In this document: piece after piece, positions 18,564 to 33,485 of the stretch
Numbering within the stretch: the first letter of the stretch is position 1
How the letters are laid out: every line of letters starts with the position of its first letter
Origin: a virus
Direction: 5' to 3' (one strand)
DNA: 38,368 nucleotides
Virus record (IMG/VR): IMGVR_UViG_3300025009_000250
Location: 1 to 38,368 of that record
The notes under the pieces: generated by a model
The model's database searches: none
Seen by the model: the letters and a program-made list of their open reading frames with translations, nothing else
Told to the model about the DNA's origin: nothing
Position numbers and translations under genes: made by a program

Positions 18564-20090
18564 CTATCTGGCCGGGTTGGGCAGTTCTCTTTCGGGTAAT
18601 CGGGGTATTGTCAATTTGGGGCGGATTATTTTTTCATTTTTCATTTGAAAACCGATGGTCGCCGCAATCAACAAATCATAATGTTTTGTGTCTTCGTCGC
18701 CTTTCAGTGTTCGCAAATCTTCCTTATCATATCGTCGGGCTTCGGAGATTATCCTCGCCGAAACAAGCTCAATCAATTCCTCGTTAACACCGGTATTCAA
18801 TTCATAGAGCATTCTTGGTTTGCTAACGAAATTGGTCTGCCAGCCGTAATTATCTTTTTCATCTTTCCAAATGTGTCTTTCGGGATAAATTTCTTTTAAT
18901 TTGGAAATTGTAGTGTGTCCGTGATTATTCCGTTCAACCGCCACGAGGGGCATTTCATATTTATCCGCTAAATTCTTAATCTCATAAGCGAACATATCCG
19001 GAGCTACTTGATTATTGGCGTATTCGGCCACAATTCTAGGTTTGGCTGGCGTAAAATCCCACAAGGCGATGGTTGAGCTGTCCCGCCCTATCCCTTCCGC
19101 CACATCGCAACCCATAGCGTAGCGATGCCCTAATTTATATTCATCAAAAATTCTGAAATTATTATATTCCTTAATCGGAGCTTTTACAATTTGCAACCCC
19201 AGTTTTTCGCTGTCAAAAAGCTTGTTTCCCGAACTCTCAAAAGCTTCTTCCGGCGTAGTCGGAAATTCTTTTTTCATTGTTTTCCAATTTCGTTCGGTTT
19301 CGCCGAGAGATAGGAATTTCAAATAATAAAAAGAAATTTCTTTATCGGTTAGATTATGCTTCTCTTGATACGCCCTGAATTCTTTTGGAACTTCTATAAT
19401 TTCCGTTGTGTTAATTTCTTCGTCCCACCGCCAATTAAAAAAATGGGCTTTGAATTGCGTCTTGTGTTGAGGCTCGCCTCTATCCCAAGCATTCCAGAAT
19501 AAATCATAGAATAATCCGTCCGAACCATCGGCGGTGCTTTCAATGTCCACTCGTCCATCAGTCGGCACGGCGGGGATTGAACCCTCCAATACTTCTCTCG
19601 CCTTATCGGGAAACATTTTGCACAATCGGGCGAACTCGGTAATGTGAAGCCGGTGATAAGTGCCAGCTCGTCCCGAACTATCCACAGCGATGGACGAGGA
19701 TGTTCCATCGCCGAACCCGACTTTGAGTTTTCGCGCCGAATTTAAGTCGCTTTCGTATTTGTCCGCCAAAACAAAATTATCCCAAGCTAGTTTAATTTTA
19801 TTATCAAAAATATCTTTGGCGGTGTCTAGGTCTTGGGCGATGAATAAGCAATCCACATTCCGAGTGAAGAGTATGTCGTCCAACATATCCGCCGCTTCAA
19901 GCGTAGTAAAACCAAGTTGTCTTGATTTCAAAATTATATTCCTAGAATGTTTATTTTTTTCAAAATCTCGCTGGGCTTTATTTTTTTTGAAAGTTACTAG
20001 CTGTTTCTGTTTATTTTTAATTTTGTAAAAATGTTCTACTCGCCATTCCTTGCTTCCCAGTCTTTCTTTGTCTTGAATGCTGAGTTTCAT
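18564..20090 (-). CDS. terL: Terminase large subunit
   Basis: 508 residues with the full two-domain layout. N-terminal ATPase: Walker A variant KSRQLGFTT (55-63), Walker B LHITEFA (148-154, E152), coupling motif ESTADG (184-189). C-terminal RNase H-like nuclease: GCDVAEGIGRDSS (327-339, D329), VAVERNNHG (383-391, E386) and HYDLLIAATIG (470-480, D472) supply the acidic metal ligands. It pumps DNA through the portal and cuts genome ends. Its start overlaps the small-terminase stop (ATGA). The motif set is complete, so it should be active. Confidence 0.95.
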   Translation of the reverse strand: MKLSIQDKERLGSKEWRVEHFYKIKNKQKQLVTFKKNKAQRDFEKNKHSRNIILKSRQLGFTTLEAADMLDDILFTRNVDCLFIAQDLDTAKDIFDNKIKLAWDNFVLADKYESDLNSARKLKVGFGDGTSSSIAVDSSGRAGTYHRLHITEFARLCKMFPDKAREVLEGSIPAVPTDGRVDIESTADGSDGLFYDLFWNAWDRGEPQHKTQFKAHFFNWRWDEEINTTEIIEVPKEFRAYQEKHNLTDKEISFYYLKFLSLGETERNWKTMKKEFPTTPEEAFESSGNKLFDSEKLGLQIVKAPIKEYNNFRIFDEYKLGHRYAMGCDVAEGIGRDSSTIALWDFTPAKPRIVAEYANNQVAPDMFAYEIKNLADKYEMPLVAVERNNHGHTTISKLKEIYPERHIWKDEKDNYGWQTNFVSKPRMLYELNTGVNEELIELVSARIISEARRYDKEDLRTLKGDEDTKHYDLLIAATIGFQMKNEKIIRPKLTIPRLPERELPNPAR

Positions 20091-27623: not shown

Positions 27624-27974
27624 TTATTTTCGTCCACATTCAGGGCAATGTTTTAATTGGGCACCAGTTTCACGGCAATAGTGTTTCGTCTTAACCGCTT
27701 TATTTATGGAAGAAAGAAGAAAAGGCAAATAATTTCTGGTTTCTTTTCTGTCCATTTCTTTTACTAATTCCGTTAATTCAGAATAAGGTGTAATAATCTC
27801 TTTCTCCCAATGCTCAACCCTTTCTTTCGGAATAGTTAATGAACCATCAGAATTTTTAACGCAAAGACTGTGCACATATTTTTGCCATCTTGCCCATCTA
27901 TCGTGTTCAAGATTTGCGCCATTCTCAACAAACTCTTTCACTACTTCATCTTTTATTTGTTGTCGTGTTTTCAT
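27624..27974 (-). CDS. RyR-domain-like protein with zinc finger
   Basis: 116 residues. LEHDRWARWQKYVHSLC (about 23-39) and TPYSELTELVKEMDRKETRN (about 62-81) form the His-Trp ... PY-x-L ... K-x-x-DR pattern seen in RyR-type domains. These occur in bacterial and phage proteins, some of which bind nucleotide signals. The C terminus has HYCRETGAQLKHCPECGRK, a short zinc site. Expression is from a consensus promoter with a structured leader. A role in signalling or defence is speculative. Confidence 0.45.
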   Translation of the reverse strand: MKTRQQIKDEVVKEFVENGANLEHDRWARWQKYVHSLCVKNSDGSLTIPKERVEHWEKEIITPYSELTELVKEMDRKETRNYLPFLLSSINKAVKTKHYCRETGAQLKHCPECGRK

Positions 27975-28150
27975 TTGTTTTTTTATTTTATAAATTCCGA
28001 CCTTAATTGAATTACCAGACTTTCCCTCTGCCTTTGCCTATTTAGACTGTGTCTTGGTTCGGCTGTGGGGTTCGGGAGAAGTCCAGTTTTTCAATCTTGA
28101 ATGTATTATATACCCCTGATAATTATTGTCAAACCCTGATGTGTGGATAA
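27975..28150 (-). promoter_or_regulatory. Consensus promoter, DnaA-type box and structured leader
   Basis: A perfect TTATCCACA box (complement of 28142-28150) lies nine bases before TTGACA (complement of 28127-28132), followed by a 16-bp spacer and TATAAT (complement of 28105-28110). The roughly 120-base leader folds into a long stem (28074-28084 with 28017-28026, ten pairs with one bulge) and then carries AAGGTCGG (complement of 27997-28004) 22 bases before the ATG. A strong, regulated early promoter. Confidence 0.7.
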
Positions 28151-28300: not shown

Positions 28301-28316
28301 ATAAAGGTATAATATA

Positions 28317-28481
28317 TTATCCAGCGGATAAGTCAACTCCTTTTTCTTTTAAAATTATCAATATGTCCTCAATGGCAGAATTGTAAATCATTGCTCGTTC
28401 GTTGGTGCCTCTACTTGTTAATCGTTTTTTATTTTCTATTTCTTCAATCAGCTCTTCTAAAATTGTTTTTATTTTTTTCAT
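28317..28481 (-). CDS. Small helical protein
   Basis: 54 residues (MKKIKTILEELIEEIENKKR...), two amphipathic helices. ATG 28481 overlaps the upstream stop (ATGA). The pattern LTSRGTNERAMIYNSAIEDI suggests a folded helical hairpin. Unknown function. Confidence 0.55.
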   Translation of the reverse strand: MKKIKTILEELIEEIENKKRLTSRGTNERAMIYNSAIEDILIILKEKGVDLSAG

Positions 28482-29171: not shown

Positions 29172-29326
29172 AAAAATTTTTCGTTAAAGGTTTTATATTG
29201 CTCAATAATACTTTCCGTTGTTTTTTTAATTTCAGGATTTTTAAAATACTTTAATCCGACTTTTATAACATCTAAAAAAAGTATTTTAATTTCTTGATAA
29301 AATTTTAATTTTTCAATGTTATTCAT
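29165..29326 (-). CDS. Small hypothetical protein coupled to helicase
   Basis: 53 residues (MNNIEKLKFYQEIKILFLDV...), helical, ending CysTAA. ATG 29326 overlaps the helicase stop (ATGA), a strong sign of co-translation and perhaps of a helicase-loader or partner role. No family recognised. Confidence 0.55.
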   Translation of the reverse strand: MNNIEKLKFYQEIKILFLDVIKVGLKYFKNPEIKKTTESIIEQYKTFNEKFLC

Positions 29327-30276
29327 ACCGCTTCCTCAAAGGCTTTGTTGGCTTCGGCTTGAACCTGCCTATAACTGCTAAATTCCTCCTCCCTGAAATG
29401 TCCGTCTCTATACACCATTTTAATGTTTCCAGTTTTTCCAAATCGCCTGTTGGCTTGAACGGACACATTGGTATTATTGGTTATTATTATTTCGTTATTT
29501 TCTCTGACGGTTTCTCTCCAAAGAATAACTACTGTATCACTCTCTTGAGCGATTGAGCCGGAACCCTTGAGGTCATCTAAGTCGGGATTTATATCAAGTC
29601 TTGTTTTGCGCAAGTGGCAAAGTAAAACTATAACTATATTCCATTTTACTGCCAATCTTTTTAATTCTCGCATTGTTTGCCCAATTCGCAGATGATGATC
29701 GTCTCCCGATATTGCAACGATAAAATCCAACTGGTCAATGAACACTATTTTTGAGCCGTGCTTTGCGATACTTTCAATTATTTTCATTTCAATCCATTGC
29801 AGATTATAAAGTTTAACACTTCTCGGTGTGTAAAAAATTGGCGGATTTTCACCTCGCTCAATAAATTTGCGGATTAACTCTTTCGCCCCTTCTTCCAATG
29901 GAAACCACACAGGTTTTTCTTCTGGTATTTTATTTGTTAAGTCTATGCAAAAAGAAGTCTTGCCGTGTTTAGTTATTCCAGATATTGTGATAATTTGACC
30001 CAAACGGAAACCTCCAATTATATTATCCAAACCACTCCAACCAGTTGTTATTTTATATTCTTCTTTTTCATTTTTTATTTCTTCCGCCAATTCCAAAGAC
30101 GAAATTATTTCGTCATCTCCTTGATAAGTTTTATATAATTCTTTCAACCTTTCCAAACTTTCGGTTTTTTGCAAACCTTTCTGTGTTTGATGAATTTCCG
30201 CCTCAATGTTTTTGATAAGCAATCCAATATCTTTTATTTCTTCTTCAAAAGGTGTTTTTAAAAAATTAGGTTTCAT
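29323..30276 (-). CDS. DnaB-type replicative helicase/RecA-like ATPase
   Basis: 317 residues. GWSGLDNIIGGFRLGQIITI leads into Walker A GITKHGKTS (100-108). Walker B is IVFIDQLDF (177-185). LLCHLRK (218-224) and GSGSIAQESDTVVIL (238-252) match DnaB/RecA family motifs. Shorter than cellular DnaB: the N-terminal domain is reduced to a short helical region. It overlaps the replication organiser upstream by 4 bases and is therefore its probable partner in opening the phage origin. Confidence 0.8.
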   Translation of the reverse strand: MKPNFLKTPFEEEIKDIGLLIKNIEAEIHQTQKGLQKTESLERLKELYKTYQGDDEIISSLELAEEIKNEKEEYKITTGWSGLDNIIGGFRLGQIITISGITKHGKTSFCIDLTNKIPEEKPVWFPLEEGAKELIRKFIERGENPPIFYTPRSVKLYNLQWIEMKIIESIAKHGSKIVFIDQLDFIVAISGDDHHLRIGQTMRELKRLAVKWNIVIVLLCHLRKTRLDINPDLDDLKGSGSIAQESDTVVILWRETVRENNEIIITNNTNVSVQANRRFGKTGNIKMVYRDGHFREEEFSSYRQVQAEANKAFEEAV

Positions 30277-30962
30277 TGTTTTTTTATAATGTCGTTAATT
30301 CTCTTGTGGACGGTTTCCAAACTCCACTCTTTATAATTTTGTTCGCAGTGCTTCATTGCTTTTGCGACTTGTTGTCCAGTATATCCCACTAAATCTTTTG
30401 CCGGTCTTAATTCTCTTTTAAGGGCGGAGTTAAATTGTTTCTTGTTTTCAAATTTCCAATCTTTTGTTTTCCAATAGAAAGCTATCAACCGCAAATCTTT
30501 TCTTTTATCATTTTTTAGTTTTTCTAGTTCTTTTAAGAAATCCCATTCTGCGGTTTCCGCAATCTGTTCTACTCTACTCTCCTCTACTCTACTCTCCTCT
30601 GGCTTAGCATCGGCTAAGCATTGGCTAAGCACATATTTTCTGCAATCATTTAAAGTTAATAATTTTTTCTCTTTTTGATGTTGGGTTGGCTTAATTCTCC
30701 TTATATCCAGCCAGTTATTTTGATGCCAGTCAGTTATTACCACTACCCCGCTTTTGAAAGGAATAATAAGTCCAGTATCAATTAAATTTTTTAAATCACC
30801 TTTTTCTCCACCATAAAGTCTAAGTATTCTTGTTGGCGAAACAAACCCCTCATCATCCGCCTCCATTCCAAGTAAAAAATAAATCGCCTTTGCTGATAAT
30901 GATATGTTTAAAAAATTATCAGTTTCCATTATCGCTTTATCAAACATTCTTTTAGAACTCAT
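30273..30962 (-). CDS. Phage replisome organiser / replication initiation protein
   Basis: 229 residues from ATG 30962. The start SSKRMFDKAIMETDNFLNIS, then LSAKAIYFLLGMEADDEGFV, is the typical opening of phage replisome-organiser winged-helix proteins. Upstream in-frame codons would lie in the HNH gene, and AAAATAT precedes ATG 30962. A repeated VEESRVEESRVEQIAETA segment (about 143-160) links it to a DnaD-like C-terminal part (ALKRELRPAKDLVGYTGQQV). It likely binds the origin and loads the downstream helicase. Confidence 0.7.
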   Translation of the reverse strand: MSSKRMFDKAIMETDNFLNISLSAKAIYFLLGMEADDEGFVSPTRILRLYGGEKGDLKNLIDTGLIIPFKSGVVVITDWHQNNWLDIRRIKPTQHQKEKKLLTLNDCRKYVLSQCLADAKPEESRVEESRVEQIAETAEWDFLKELEKLKNDKRKDLRLIAFYWKTKDWKFENKKQFNSALKRELRPAKDLVGYTGQQVAKAMKHCEQNYKEWSLETVHKRINDIIKKQ

Positions 30963-31347
30963 ATATTTTGTTGCCTTTTCCAATGTTACACTCATCGCAA
31001 GAAAGCGTTAGATTATTTTTATTAGATGTTCCACCTTTAGAAATTGGATATATATGGTCAATATGGAAAACAACTTCTGGTGCTTTTCTTCCACAATATT
31101 GACAAGTAAAATTATATTTTTTTAAAAAATCAAATCTATCTTTTAATCGAGTATATCTATAATATTTTCTATTTTTTATTTTATGACATTCTTTACAATA
31201 CCACCCAAAACCATTACATCCTTTTCCTGTAAAATTATGAAAAAAATTACTTTCATTTAATGCAAATACTTCTTTACATAACAAACATTTTCTTAAACCA
31301 AACTTCTTTAAACCCCTTCTATTTTTTTGTGTCTGTCTTTCTTTCAT
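30952..31347 (-). CDS. HNH endonuclease with N-terminal zinc finger
   Basis: 131 residues from ATG 31347 (MKERQTQKNRRGLKKF). A CLLCKEVF ... WYCKECH zinc site precedes an HNH core: CQYCGRKAPEVVFHIDHIYP then ISKGGTSNKNNLTLSCDECN. The arrangement matches free-standing homing-type nucleases. Its stop overlaps the start of the replication organiser by 11 bases. The 32-codon leader and terminator-like hairpin directly upstream may limit its expression. Confidence 0.8.
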   Translation of the reverse strand: MKERQTQKNRRGLKKFGLRKCLLCKEVFALNESNFFHNFTGKGCNGFGWYCKECHKIKNRKYYRYTRLKDRFDFLKKYNFTCQYCGRKAPEVVFHIDHIYPISKGGTSNKNNLTLSCDECNIGKGNKIYEF

Positions 31348-31351
31348 ATTT

Positions 31352-31450
31352 TTAACAGGCAAAAAAGAGCCGACAGGAAATTCTTGGAAGAAAACCGCCG
31401 GCTCTTTTTTGCCAATTATCTATTAAATTATATTCCAAGAATTTCATCAT
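31352..31450 (-). CDS. Possible 32-residue leader peptide through a terminator
   Basis: ATGATG at 31450 opens a frame of 32 codons (MMKFLEYNLIDNWQKRAGGF...) ending in TAA four bases before the HNH gene's ATG. TATAAA lies 8 bases upstream. The frame reads through both arms of the 15-bp terminator stem. A translating ribosome would therefore alter termination. It could equally be a chance frame. Confidence 0.35.
   Translation of the reverse strand: MMKFLEYNLIDNWQKRAGGFLPRISCRLFFAC
31358..31413 (-). terminator. Intrinsic terminator with a competing upstream pairing
   Basis: A perfect 15-bp stem (31358-31372 with 31399-31413) contains the GAGCCG/CGGCTC core and T6 on either strand. Inside its loop, 31377-31389 is perfectly complementary over 13 bases to 31433-31445, upstream in the leftward transcript. 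The two pairings interleave and the connecting segment (4 bases) is too short for both to form fully. This is the geometry of an attenuator. Confidence 0.65.
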
Positions 31451-31512
31451 ATATCTATTTTATACCTCCTTTTTAAACTTGCAAGTCAAGGGGGTGTTTA
31501 AGGTGTGGATAA
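31451..31512 (-). promoter_or_regulatory. Promoter with DnaA-type box
   Basis: TTATCCACA (complement of 31504-31512), then TTGACT (complement of 31484-31489), TGCAAGT (complement of 31477-31483) and GGTATAAAATA with TATAAA at the complement of 31459-31464. The TGCAAGT-N10-GGTATAAAATA block is shared exactly with the Mom promoter at 32147-32177. The -35 to -10 distance is 19, so either TTGACT is not used or an activator helps. Confidence 0.5.
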
Positions 31513-31519
31513 GTATAAT

Positions 31520-32146
31520 CTATACAAATTTTCTATCCAAAATATATAAAAATCTATATTGCCAATCATTACCTTTAATATGTTTAATCCCGGGATATTG
31601 TTTTTGTAAAAATTCTTTTGCTCTGGTTTTGTGGCGATGATACATTGAAACGGGATGCACTCTCTCACCCGAAGGAAGAATATAAAAATCACAGGGTATC
31701 TTTCCTATTATTTTAGCATTTGTCGCTTTATAAATTATTCCAGTATTTCCCACACTGCCGTCAGCGTAAGTTATTATAAATTTTATATTTTTATAAACCT
31801 GTTTTAAATAACTTAATAATAAGGCAATGCACTGGCTCTCACTGTTTTTAGGCAATTCATCAGATAACCACATCCTATCAAATTCACAGAAATTGCCTTT
31901 TGTTATTTTAGAATGAATAGAATGTTTTATTGTTGGTCTTATTCCATACCCTAGTTGCATAAAACCTTTATCTTCATTTACTAAAAAACTTTTAAATCTA
32001 TTTTTTGTTGATTTGTGAGAATAATGATATTTTTTTACTAATTCATCTACTACACCATTATCAGCTTCTTTCAAGATAAATTTTCCATTTGTAATTCCAA
32101 CAGGTTGTTTACCAAATAAAGATTCTTTATATATTAAAGTTTTCAT
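31520..32146 (-). CDS. Mom-like adenine modification protein
   Basis: 208 residues. Segments YHYSHKSTKNRF, FCEFDRMWLSDELPKNSESQ, then CIALLLSYLK, IKFIITYADGSVGNTGIIYK and HPVSMYHRHK follow the layout of Mom-family proteins (a GNAT-like fold) such as phage Mu Mom. Mom converts adenine in DNA to a carbamoylmethyl-type derivative and protects phage DNA from restriction. TATAAA lies 6 bases before the ATG, so the message is probably leaderless, and a 15-bp terminator lies about 110 bases after the stop. Target sequence and exact modification are unknown. Confidence 0.7.
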   Translation of the reverse strand: MKTLIYKESLFGKQPVGITNGKFILKEADNGVVDELVKKYHYSHKSTKNRFKSFLVNEDKGFMQLGYGIRPTIKHSIHSKITKGNFCEFDRMWLSDELPKNSESQCIALLLSYLKQVYKNIKFIITYADGSVGNTGIIYKATNAKIIGKIPCDFYILPSGERVHPVSMYHRHKTRAKEFLQKQYPGIKHIKGNDWQYRFLYILDRKFV

Positions 32147-32326
32147 ATTTATTTTATACCTATTTTTTCTACTTGCATATAATTATTTATGTTTTATGAT
32201 TTATTTAAGTTTCAACCGAAACACTATTTTTAAATCGGATTTTGAAACAACAGCTTTCACTACTGGGCAATTCGGCAAGCCGGTTGTCTGGGGCGGGTAA
32301 AGAGGGGATTTTCAAAGTCTCCTTTT
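32147..32326 (-). promoter_or_regulatory. Mom promoter and structured intergenic segment
   Basis: TGCAAGT (complement of 32171-32177), N10, GGTATAAAATA with TATAAA (complement of 32153-32158) six bases before the Mom ATG. Further upstream GTTTCAA (32210-32216) pairs with TTGAAAC (32242-32248), with inner CCGA/TCGG. CGGCAAGCCG (about 32272-32281) forms a small palindrome. No gene is seen in these 180 bases. Confidence 0.45.
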
Positions 32327-32719
32327 TTATTTATAAAAGCCCTTTGTCGGATTTTTAAATAAATACAATCCTTTGGCTTTCCGTTTCTCGTTTTCAATCG
32401 CTAATAAATCTTTGTAAGATTTCCCTGTTTTAAGTTTCAATGTTTTTCCTGTTTTGTGCCGATACTCATACTGATATTTAATAATTTTTTCTCTTTTAAG
32501 TTTTCGGTAGTTTTTCATATAATCAATTTGGCTCGCCCATATTGATTTTTTTCTCTTGATTAAATCGGTCAATCCATTCTTTTTTAAATGATAATGAATA
32601 CAGCTATGGTTTATGCCATATTTCCTCGCCACCGCAGTTTTTAGAACCCCCGCTTTCACTTCGGCGATAATGTTTTGGACATCTTCCTGCGACAGTTTAT
32701 TTTTAGTTGCTCCGGACAT
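32327..32719 (-). CDS. HTH DNA-binding protein
   Basis: 130 residues from ATG 32719 (MSGATKNKLSQEDVQNIIAE). AEVKAGVLKTAVARKYGINH is a resolvase/transposase-style helix-turn-helix (TAVARKYGIN, then CIHYHLKK). A long basic helical tail follows (MKNYRKLKREKIIKYQYEYR). No nuclease core is visible, so a sequence-specific regulator or HNH-accessory protein is likely. It starts 4 bases after the upstream stop. Confidence 0.6.
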   Translation of the reverse strand: MSGATKNKLSQEDVQNIIAEVKAGVLKTAVARKYGINHSCIHYHLKKNGLTDLIKRKKSIWASQIDYMKNYRKLKREKIIKYQYEYRHKTGKTLKLKTGKSYKDLLAIENEKRKAKGLYLFKNPTKGFYK

Positions 32720-32723
32720 AAAA

Positions 32724-33155
32724 TTAGGTTGTGTTAGAAAAAAATACATCTTTCAGGGCGGATAAAAGTGGATTTTTTTCTTCACCGCCTCTCTTGTCAT
32801 AAATCCAGCGTTTCATTTTATTCATTCTAGTTATTTCGTCTTCGCCTAATACAACTTTGAGTTCTTTGGGAACTTCTATTTTCCATCTTTGTAAAATATT
32901 CCCCGCTAGATACAAATAAATGTTAACCCATTTGTGATTCAATGGCACCCTGCCGGTTTGGGGCATAATATAAGCAAGACATTCCGCGTCCCCGACTGTT
33001 TTACTTTTTAGTTCGGGTTTTGCCATTTCAATGAGCCCGTTTATCATTCGCTCTGATTTTACTTCATTAAGCAACTTTTCAGGCGGTATCCATTCGGTAT
33101 TTGCCAGAAGTATTTTTGTATTCTCCTTATTATTAAACTTCATATTAGTTTTCAT
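32724..33155 (-). CDS. Hypothetical early protein
   Basis: 143 residues (MKTNMKFNNKENTKILLANT...), mixed alpha/beta, with EWIPPEKLLNEVKSERMING and LNHKWVNIYLYLAGNILQRW. It is the first leftward gene after the short-RNA locus and is preceded by a TATAAT with a small palindrome. The first of two near ATGs (33155) is used; 33143 is possible. Unknown function. Confidence 0.55.
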   Translation of the reverse strand: MKTNMKFNNKENTKILLANTEWIPPEKLLNEVKSERMINGLIEMAKPELKSKTVGDAECLAYIMPQTGRVPLNHKWVNIYLYLAGNILQRWKIEVPKELKVVLGEDEITRMNKMKRWIYDKRGGEEKNPLLSALKDVFFSNTT

Positions 33156-33440: not shown

Positions 33441-33485
33441 ATCTTATACCTATTCAGTTTTAATGTCAAGCAAATATGTGGATAG
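33441..33485 (-). promoter_or_regulatory. Promoter of the short transcript with DnaA-type box
   Basis: CTATCCACA (complement of 33477-33485, one change from a DnaA box), seven bases, TTGACA (complement of 33464-33469), 17-bp spacer and TAAGAT (complement of 33441-33446), overlapping TATAAG. The preceding GG matches the GGTATAA element of two other early promoters. Confidence 0.65.

Follow-up and report, generated by a model that had tools for sequence, protein, structure and literature searches.

Three leftward promoters in a viral genome raise the question of whether the DnaA-box-like sites in front of them are accidental or functional and, if functional, which protein reads them and with what effect. 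The window, i.e., the whole stretch of DNA analysed, is a virus record of 38,368 bases with a GC content of 37%. The original prediction placed a nine-base box or its one-base variant 7, 9, and 14 bases upstream of the -35 elements of these promoters, regarded this as unexpected by chance, and proposed that host DnaA might act on phage early transcription, with an unrelated phage activator as the alternative. The relevant features are listed below, with the gap given as the number of bases between a box and the -35 element.

18564-20090: large terminase gene of the window
28105-28110, - strand: predicted -10 element TATAAT (spacer of 16), leading leftward to the ORF at 27624-27974 and small ORFs beyond
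28127-28132, - strand: predicted -35 element TTGACA, part of a 12/12 promoter
28142-28150, - strand: DnaA box TTATCCACA, flanked as AG-box-C, gap of 9 to the -35; canonical member of the predicted class
29323-30276: DnaB-like helicase gene, downstream of the leftward -10 at 31457-31462
30273-30995: DnaD-like helicase loader gene, downstream of the same -10
30952-31362: HNH nuclease gene, downstream of the same -10
31457-31462, - strand: predicted -10 element TAAAAT (spacer of 16), leading leftward into the HNH, DnaD-like loader, and DnaB-like helicase genes
31479-31484, - strand: -35 element TTGCAA preferred by the promoter scan; the -35 first proposed was TTGACT at 31484-31489
31504-31512, - strand: DnaA box TTATCCACA, flanked as AC-box-C, gap of 14 to TTGACT and of 19 to TTGCAA
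31520-32146: Mom-family DNA modification gene (Pfam PF25680, 130 bits)
33441-33446, - strand: predicted -10 element TAAGAT (spacer of 17), leading leftward to the ORFs at 32724-33155 and 32327-32749
33464-33469, - strand: -35 element TTGACA from the promoter scan
33477-33485, - strand: variant box CTATCCACA, flank AG, gap of 7 to the -35

The boxes and their gaps of 9 (28142), 14 (31504), and 7 (33477) to the -35 elements first drawn were confirmed, as were their shared strand and orientation. Exact copies of TTATCCACA in the 38,368-base window were found only at 28142-28150 and 31504-31512, and the site at 33477-33485 differs from it by one change. The predicted promoter at 28132/28105 reached a perfect score of 12/12, whereas the 31504 promoter was weak as originally drawn (TTGACT, approximately 19 bases from TATAAA), and the promoter scan favoured the better-spaced TTGCAA-16-TAAAAT (31484..31457). 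With TTGCAA as the -35 element, the 31504 box lies at a gap of 19, ten bases from a gap of 9, and is in phase. In all three boxes, position -2 is an A and position -1 a G or a C, as in the wider set described below, and the probability of this shared flank, reckoned from base composition, is approximately 0.002. Of the three sites, 28142 counts as a canonical member of the predicted promoter class, 31504 is likely a member placed one helix turn further out, and 33477 is a possible member. The three predicted promoters are called early from their downstream genes only.

Other elements were observed near these sites. A 33-nt repeat (31451-31483 and 32145-32177, 85% alike) holds the same -35/-10 block (TGCAAGT...GGTATAAAATA); the copy at 31451-31483 has the DnaA box upstream and precedes the HNH and replication genes, and the copy at 32145-32177 is without a box and precedes the Mom gene, which is carried by a putative Patescibacteria phage. 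At 28309-28336 (- strand), the promoter TTGACT-16-TATTAT has in its spacer a perfect, operator-like inverted repeat (TTATCC-GCT-GGATAA), one half of which is identical to the opening hexamer of the DnaA box.

The number of 9-mers within one mismatch of the box was ordinary in the window (14 versus 10.6 expected). The placement before promoters was beyond chance, as originally proposed: two boxes stood 4-16 bases before strong promoters (score of at least 10/12), compared with a mean of 0.08 for letter-permuted 9-mers, and none of 149 permuted 9-mers reached two such positions.

The same architecture was found in other phages. The pattern TTATCCACA-N4-16-TTGACA-N16-18-TATAAT was present at 95 sites in 2.9 million viral contigs, 71 of them at gaps of 8-10, and after the removal of near-copies 63 of 84 sites had these gaps. 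The reversed-letter box, used as a control in the viral contigs, gave 24 sites with a flat gap distribution. A wider scan, which allowed any gap between 3 and 32 and did not require a -10 element, showed peaks at gaps of 7-10, 18-21, and 28-30 among the matches listed. The gaps of these listed matches, some of whose contigs may be related even after near-copies were removed, had a periodicity of 10.5 bp (R 0.40, p ~1.5e-7), which was matched by 0 of 20,000 uniform simulations. As the phage gaps repeat with the helix, it matters on which helix face the box lies, and such phasing is expected of a protein that contacts RNA polymerase on a single face of the helix. The sole near phage relative of the window (L003) matches it at 12.4-24.2 kb, outside the box promoters, and no synteny at the three box promoters was found in L531, a relative by the helicase loader gene. 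Taken together, the loader relatives had few boxes, none of them at gaps of 7-11, and thus the architecture was not inherited with the loader gene.

Two further arrangements were noted. Reversed boxes (TGTGGATAA) are likewise present close to promoters, where they favour a gap of 5-7 and form a second geometry (viral loci L094-L209 among the matches listed, and G002 loci). A Clostridia promoter family (L290, L296, L313, and L345) has TTATCCACA at a gap of 10-11 before ...TTTCTTGACA...TAATATATAAT and recurs across species.

The sites were also enriched in Patescibacteria (CPR bacteria), a very large group of ultra-small cells, most of them uncultured. An even random draw of 286 Patescibacteria genomes contained 59 sites of the box before TTGACA, compared with 3 for the reversed-pattern control, and gaps of 7, 8, 9, 10, and 11 accounted for 10, 21, 18, 8, and 2 of them, respectively. 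No enrichment was observed in the samples of Bacillota (3 sites versus 6 in the control) and Bacteroidota (6 versus 5). Scanning all genomes gave 117 genome matches, 63 of which were named as Patescibacteria; gaps of 8-10 were found for 39 of 65 Patescibacteria sites versus 11 of 47 sites in other named bacteria, the latter being the expectation for an even spread of gaps. Most Patescibacteria in the 286-genome draw have 0-2 exact sites each, and beyond certain lineages the class is therefore sparse. Among the richest genomes, the draft of AH-259-L07 (G002) has 40 sites and that of its relative AH-259-L05 (G003) has 20, each with 0 in the control; these two and G001 were reached via the pattern itself, and their counts are not a random sample.

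G002 (1.17 Mb) has 117 boxes, of which 43 have a -35 element at a gap of 9 (33 boxes) or 10 (10 boxes); a gap of 19 was found for five, and the remaining gaps for 0-3 each. Boxes were near 32 of its 178 strong promoters, and taking the most frequent base, position by position, ahead of these 178 promoters gives TTATCCACA at a gap of 9, which is the peak in G002, in G002 and G003 combined, and in phages. The extended motif A[G/C]TTATCCACAG is identical in cells and phages. Box density was thus far higher at gaps of 8-10 than at other distances, and not equal away from promoters; in the window, in many other phages, and in Patescibacteria, the box is associated with promoters and keeps a constant orientation and helical phase relative to them. 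The genes behind the box promoters are cellular, encoding aspartokinase-homoserine dehydrogenase, NadA, LexA-like, CDC48-like, ribosomal L10, and HrcA proteins, as well as isochorismatase family, NrtR-like, and PIN and Phd toxin-antitoxin proteins. In a separate arrangement on contig 2 of G002 (L357:18766-18812), four tandem reversed boxes spaced by 10, 14, and 14 bases stand immediately before a promoter and adjoin an array of approximately 10 paralogous zinc-ribbon-like proteins of 570-600 aa.

Regarding the protein that reads the box, the motif is exactly the DnaA consensus, and sigma-70 type promoters with a DnaA box, one feature expected of DnaA-regulated promoters, were found in both the window and G002. 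DnaA domain IV was detected in 53 of 58 relatives of G002, the recognition signature [R/K]DHTT[A/V] was kept in 34 of 34 Patescibacteria DnaA proteins inspected, and the dnaA loci of Patescibacteria contain 14 boxes in 106 kb compared with 0.98 for permuted 9-mers (14-fold). Patescibacteria thus appear to possess a DnaA able to read TTATCCACA. None of the three most box-rich genomes (G001, G002, and G003) yielded a domain IV. The drafts G002 and G003 have 31 and 30 tRNA genes, respectively, compared with 44-49 in fuller relatives; they are therefore incomplete, and the missing domain IV may be missing sequence. Draft incompleteness is likely for these two, but a real loss of DnaA in G001-G003 is conceivable. 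A scenario with loss of DnaA from the box-rich lineage and takeover of its box by another factor was dropped as unproven, G002 and G003 being incomplete. A second box at 11-12 bp was found for at most 1-2 of 56-73 sites in phages and Patescibacteria, and an E. coli-type double-box requirement was discarded on this basis; the double-box rule describes in vivo binding in E. coli and does not define DnaA-regulated promoters. An UP element bound by alpha-CTD, which consists of A/T tracts without a specific 9-mer, does not describe the specific, C/G-containing 9-mer with its conserved flank.

Taken together, we favour, with some confidence, the reading that the boxes mark a distinct class of sigma-70 promoter used by Patescibacteria and their phages, at which a host box-binding protein, most likely DnaA, would assist RNA polymerase. 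The class itself is very probably real, host-based, and exploited by phages; DnaA is quite probably the binder of the box, and box-bound DnaA probably activates the promoter. In the proposed mechanism, a single box A[G/C]TTATCCACAG has its downstream edge approximately 9 bp before the -35 element, or 19 or 29 bp before it with one or two more helix turns, so that a gap-9 box covers roughly -53 to -45. The host protein on the box would contact RNA polymerase from that helix face and facilitate its binding or promoter opening, in the manner of DnaA at E. coli nrdAB, placing the replication genes and other leftward phage genes under a host signal. The box promoter looks like a host switch borrowed by phages. 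The reversed boxes at gaps of 5-7 near promoters, seen in the phage matches listed and in G002 and G003, are not accounted for by a simple one-way contact.

Known systems offer partial parallels. In lambda, DnaA boxes lie downstream of pR, whereas the window boxes lie upstream and in phase with the -35 element. Lambda is similar in that host DnaA drives the replication region of a phage, which for the window is a proposal from sequence; DnaA stimulates pR and ori-lambda transcription through RNA polymerase beta (PMC8203912). At E. coli nrdAB, which DnaA, when at low level, activates and which it can also repress (PMC8203912), TTATCCACA stands 11 bp before the -35 element TTGCAA (NC_000913). 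It has the same orientation as the phage boxes and likewise lies directly before a weak -35 element; TTGCAA is the hexamer preferred at 31504 as well. However, nrdAB has further boxes, one abutting the -35 element, and the E. coli regulon is small, whereas here single boxes with a gap of 9 are found at phage promoters and before dozens of genes unrelated to one another. Inside E. coli cells, DnaA favours box pairs 2-3 bp apart (ChIP-seq, Stringer et al. 2024, PMC11317965); the same 9-mer lies upstream of genes in that regulon, but the Patescibacteria and phage sites are without the second box.

Several other explanations were weighed. That another host transcription factor shares the 9-mer specificity of DnaA, with DnaA uninvolved, is unlikely. 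The three most box-rich genomes without detectable domain IV, the single box at a fixed phase in place of the E. coli double boxes, and the conserved flank (A[G/C]...G) reaching past the 9-mer are consistent with such a factor; the exact DnaA consensus, the recognition signature intact in all 34 relatives, the 14-fold box enrichment at dnaA loci, and the incompleteness of two of the three genomes argue against it. It is also somewhat unlikely that DnaA mainly represses or times the promoters, turning them off at high DnaA-ATP, or that the sites titrate DnaA. Repressor sites usually overlap the -35 or -10 element, whereas here the box is upstream, the core is free, and the helical phase is kept over three turns, and titration needs no phase. 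Nevertheless, DnaA acts as a repressor at many promoters and can work in either direction at nrdAB (PMC8203912), and one report describes titration by chromosomal boxes in E. coli (PMC12371093).

A phage-encoded activator with a similar site, the alternative raised in the original prediction, could explain three sites on one strand of one phage. It has become very improbable, because the sites are not confined to phage: the architecture also precedes chromosomal genes of Patescibacteria and serves unrelated phages. The chance occurrence of AT-rich 9-mers beside AT-rich promoters would agree with the ordinary one-mismatch count and with the individual weakness of the 33477 and 31504 sites, but permuted 9-mers failed to reproduce the placement, and the fixed gap, phase, and phylum specificity refute it for the class, leaving it scarcely credible. 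For the 33477 site alone, chance is possible, although the less probable explanation.

Host-assisted activation, most likely by DnaA, therefore remains the preferred reading, under which a Patescibacterium would be the host of the phage, and transcription of the phage would track the DnaA level or the cell cycle. The evidence on the host is indirect. Relatives of the window portal and terminase, both weak, were found on one Patescibacteria contig (G221:C5), and G116 has a terminase relative (33%). Host assignment via the terminase was not decisive, as isolate phages also match it, at only ~30%. The structural-protein repeat motifs GIGTTSP and TATSTF were present in Patescibacteria loci and absent from the other genome loci compared.

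To our knowledge, hardly anything has been established about how genes are regulated in Patescibacteria, and no paper on Patescibacteria promoters or such box promoters was found in the library searched. A fixed promoter-linked site would be among the first regulatory rules for this group. The architecture could mark Patescibacteria phages and offer an inexpensive way of linking orphan phages to these hosts. More tentatively, the replication initiator may serve across the phylum as a helix-phased activator of genes for metabolism, ribosomes, stress, and toxin-antitoxin systems, dozens in number, with phages having adopted the class for their replication genes. The box promoters would suggest that cell and phage genes alike are tuned by the DnaA level, and, if true, general transcription would be coupled to replication capacity across the phylum.
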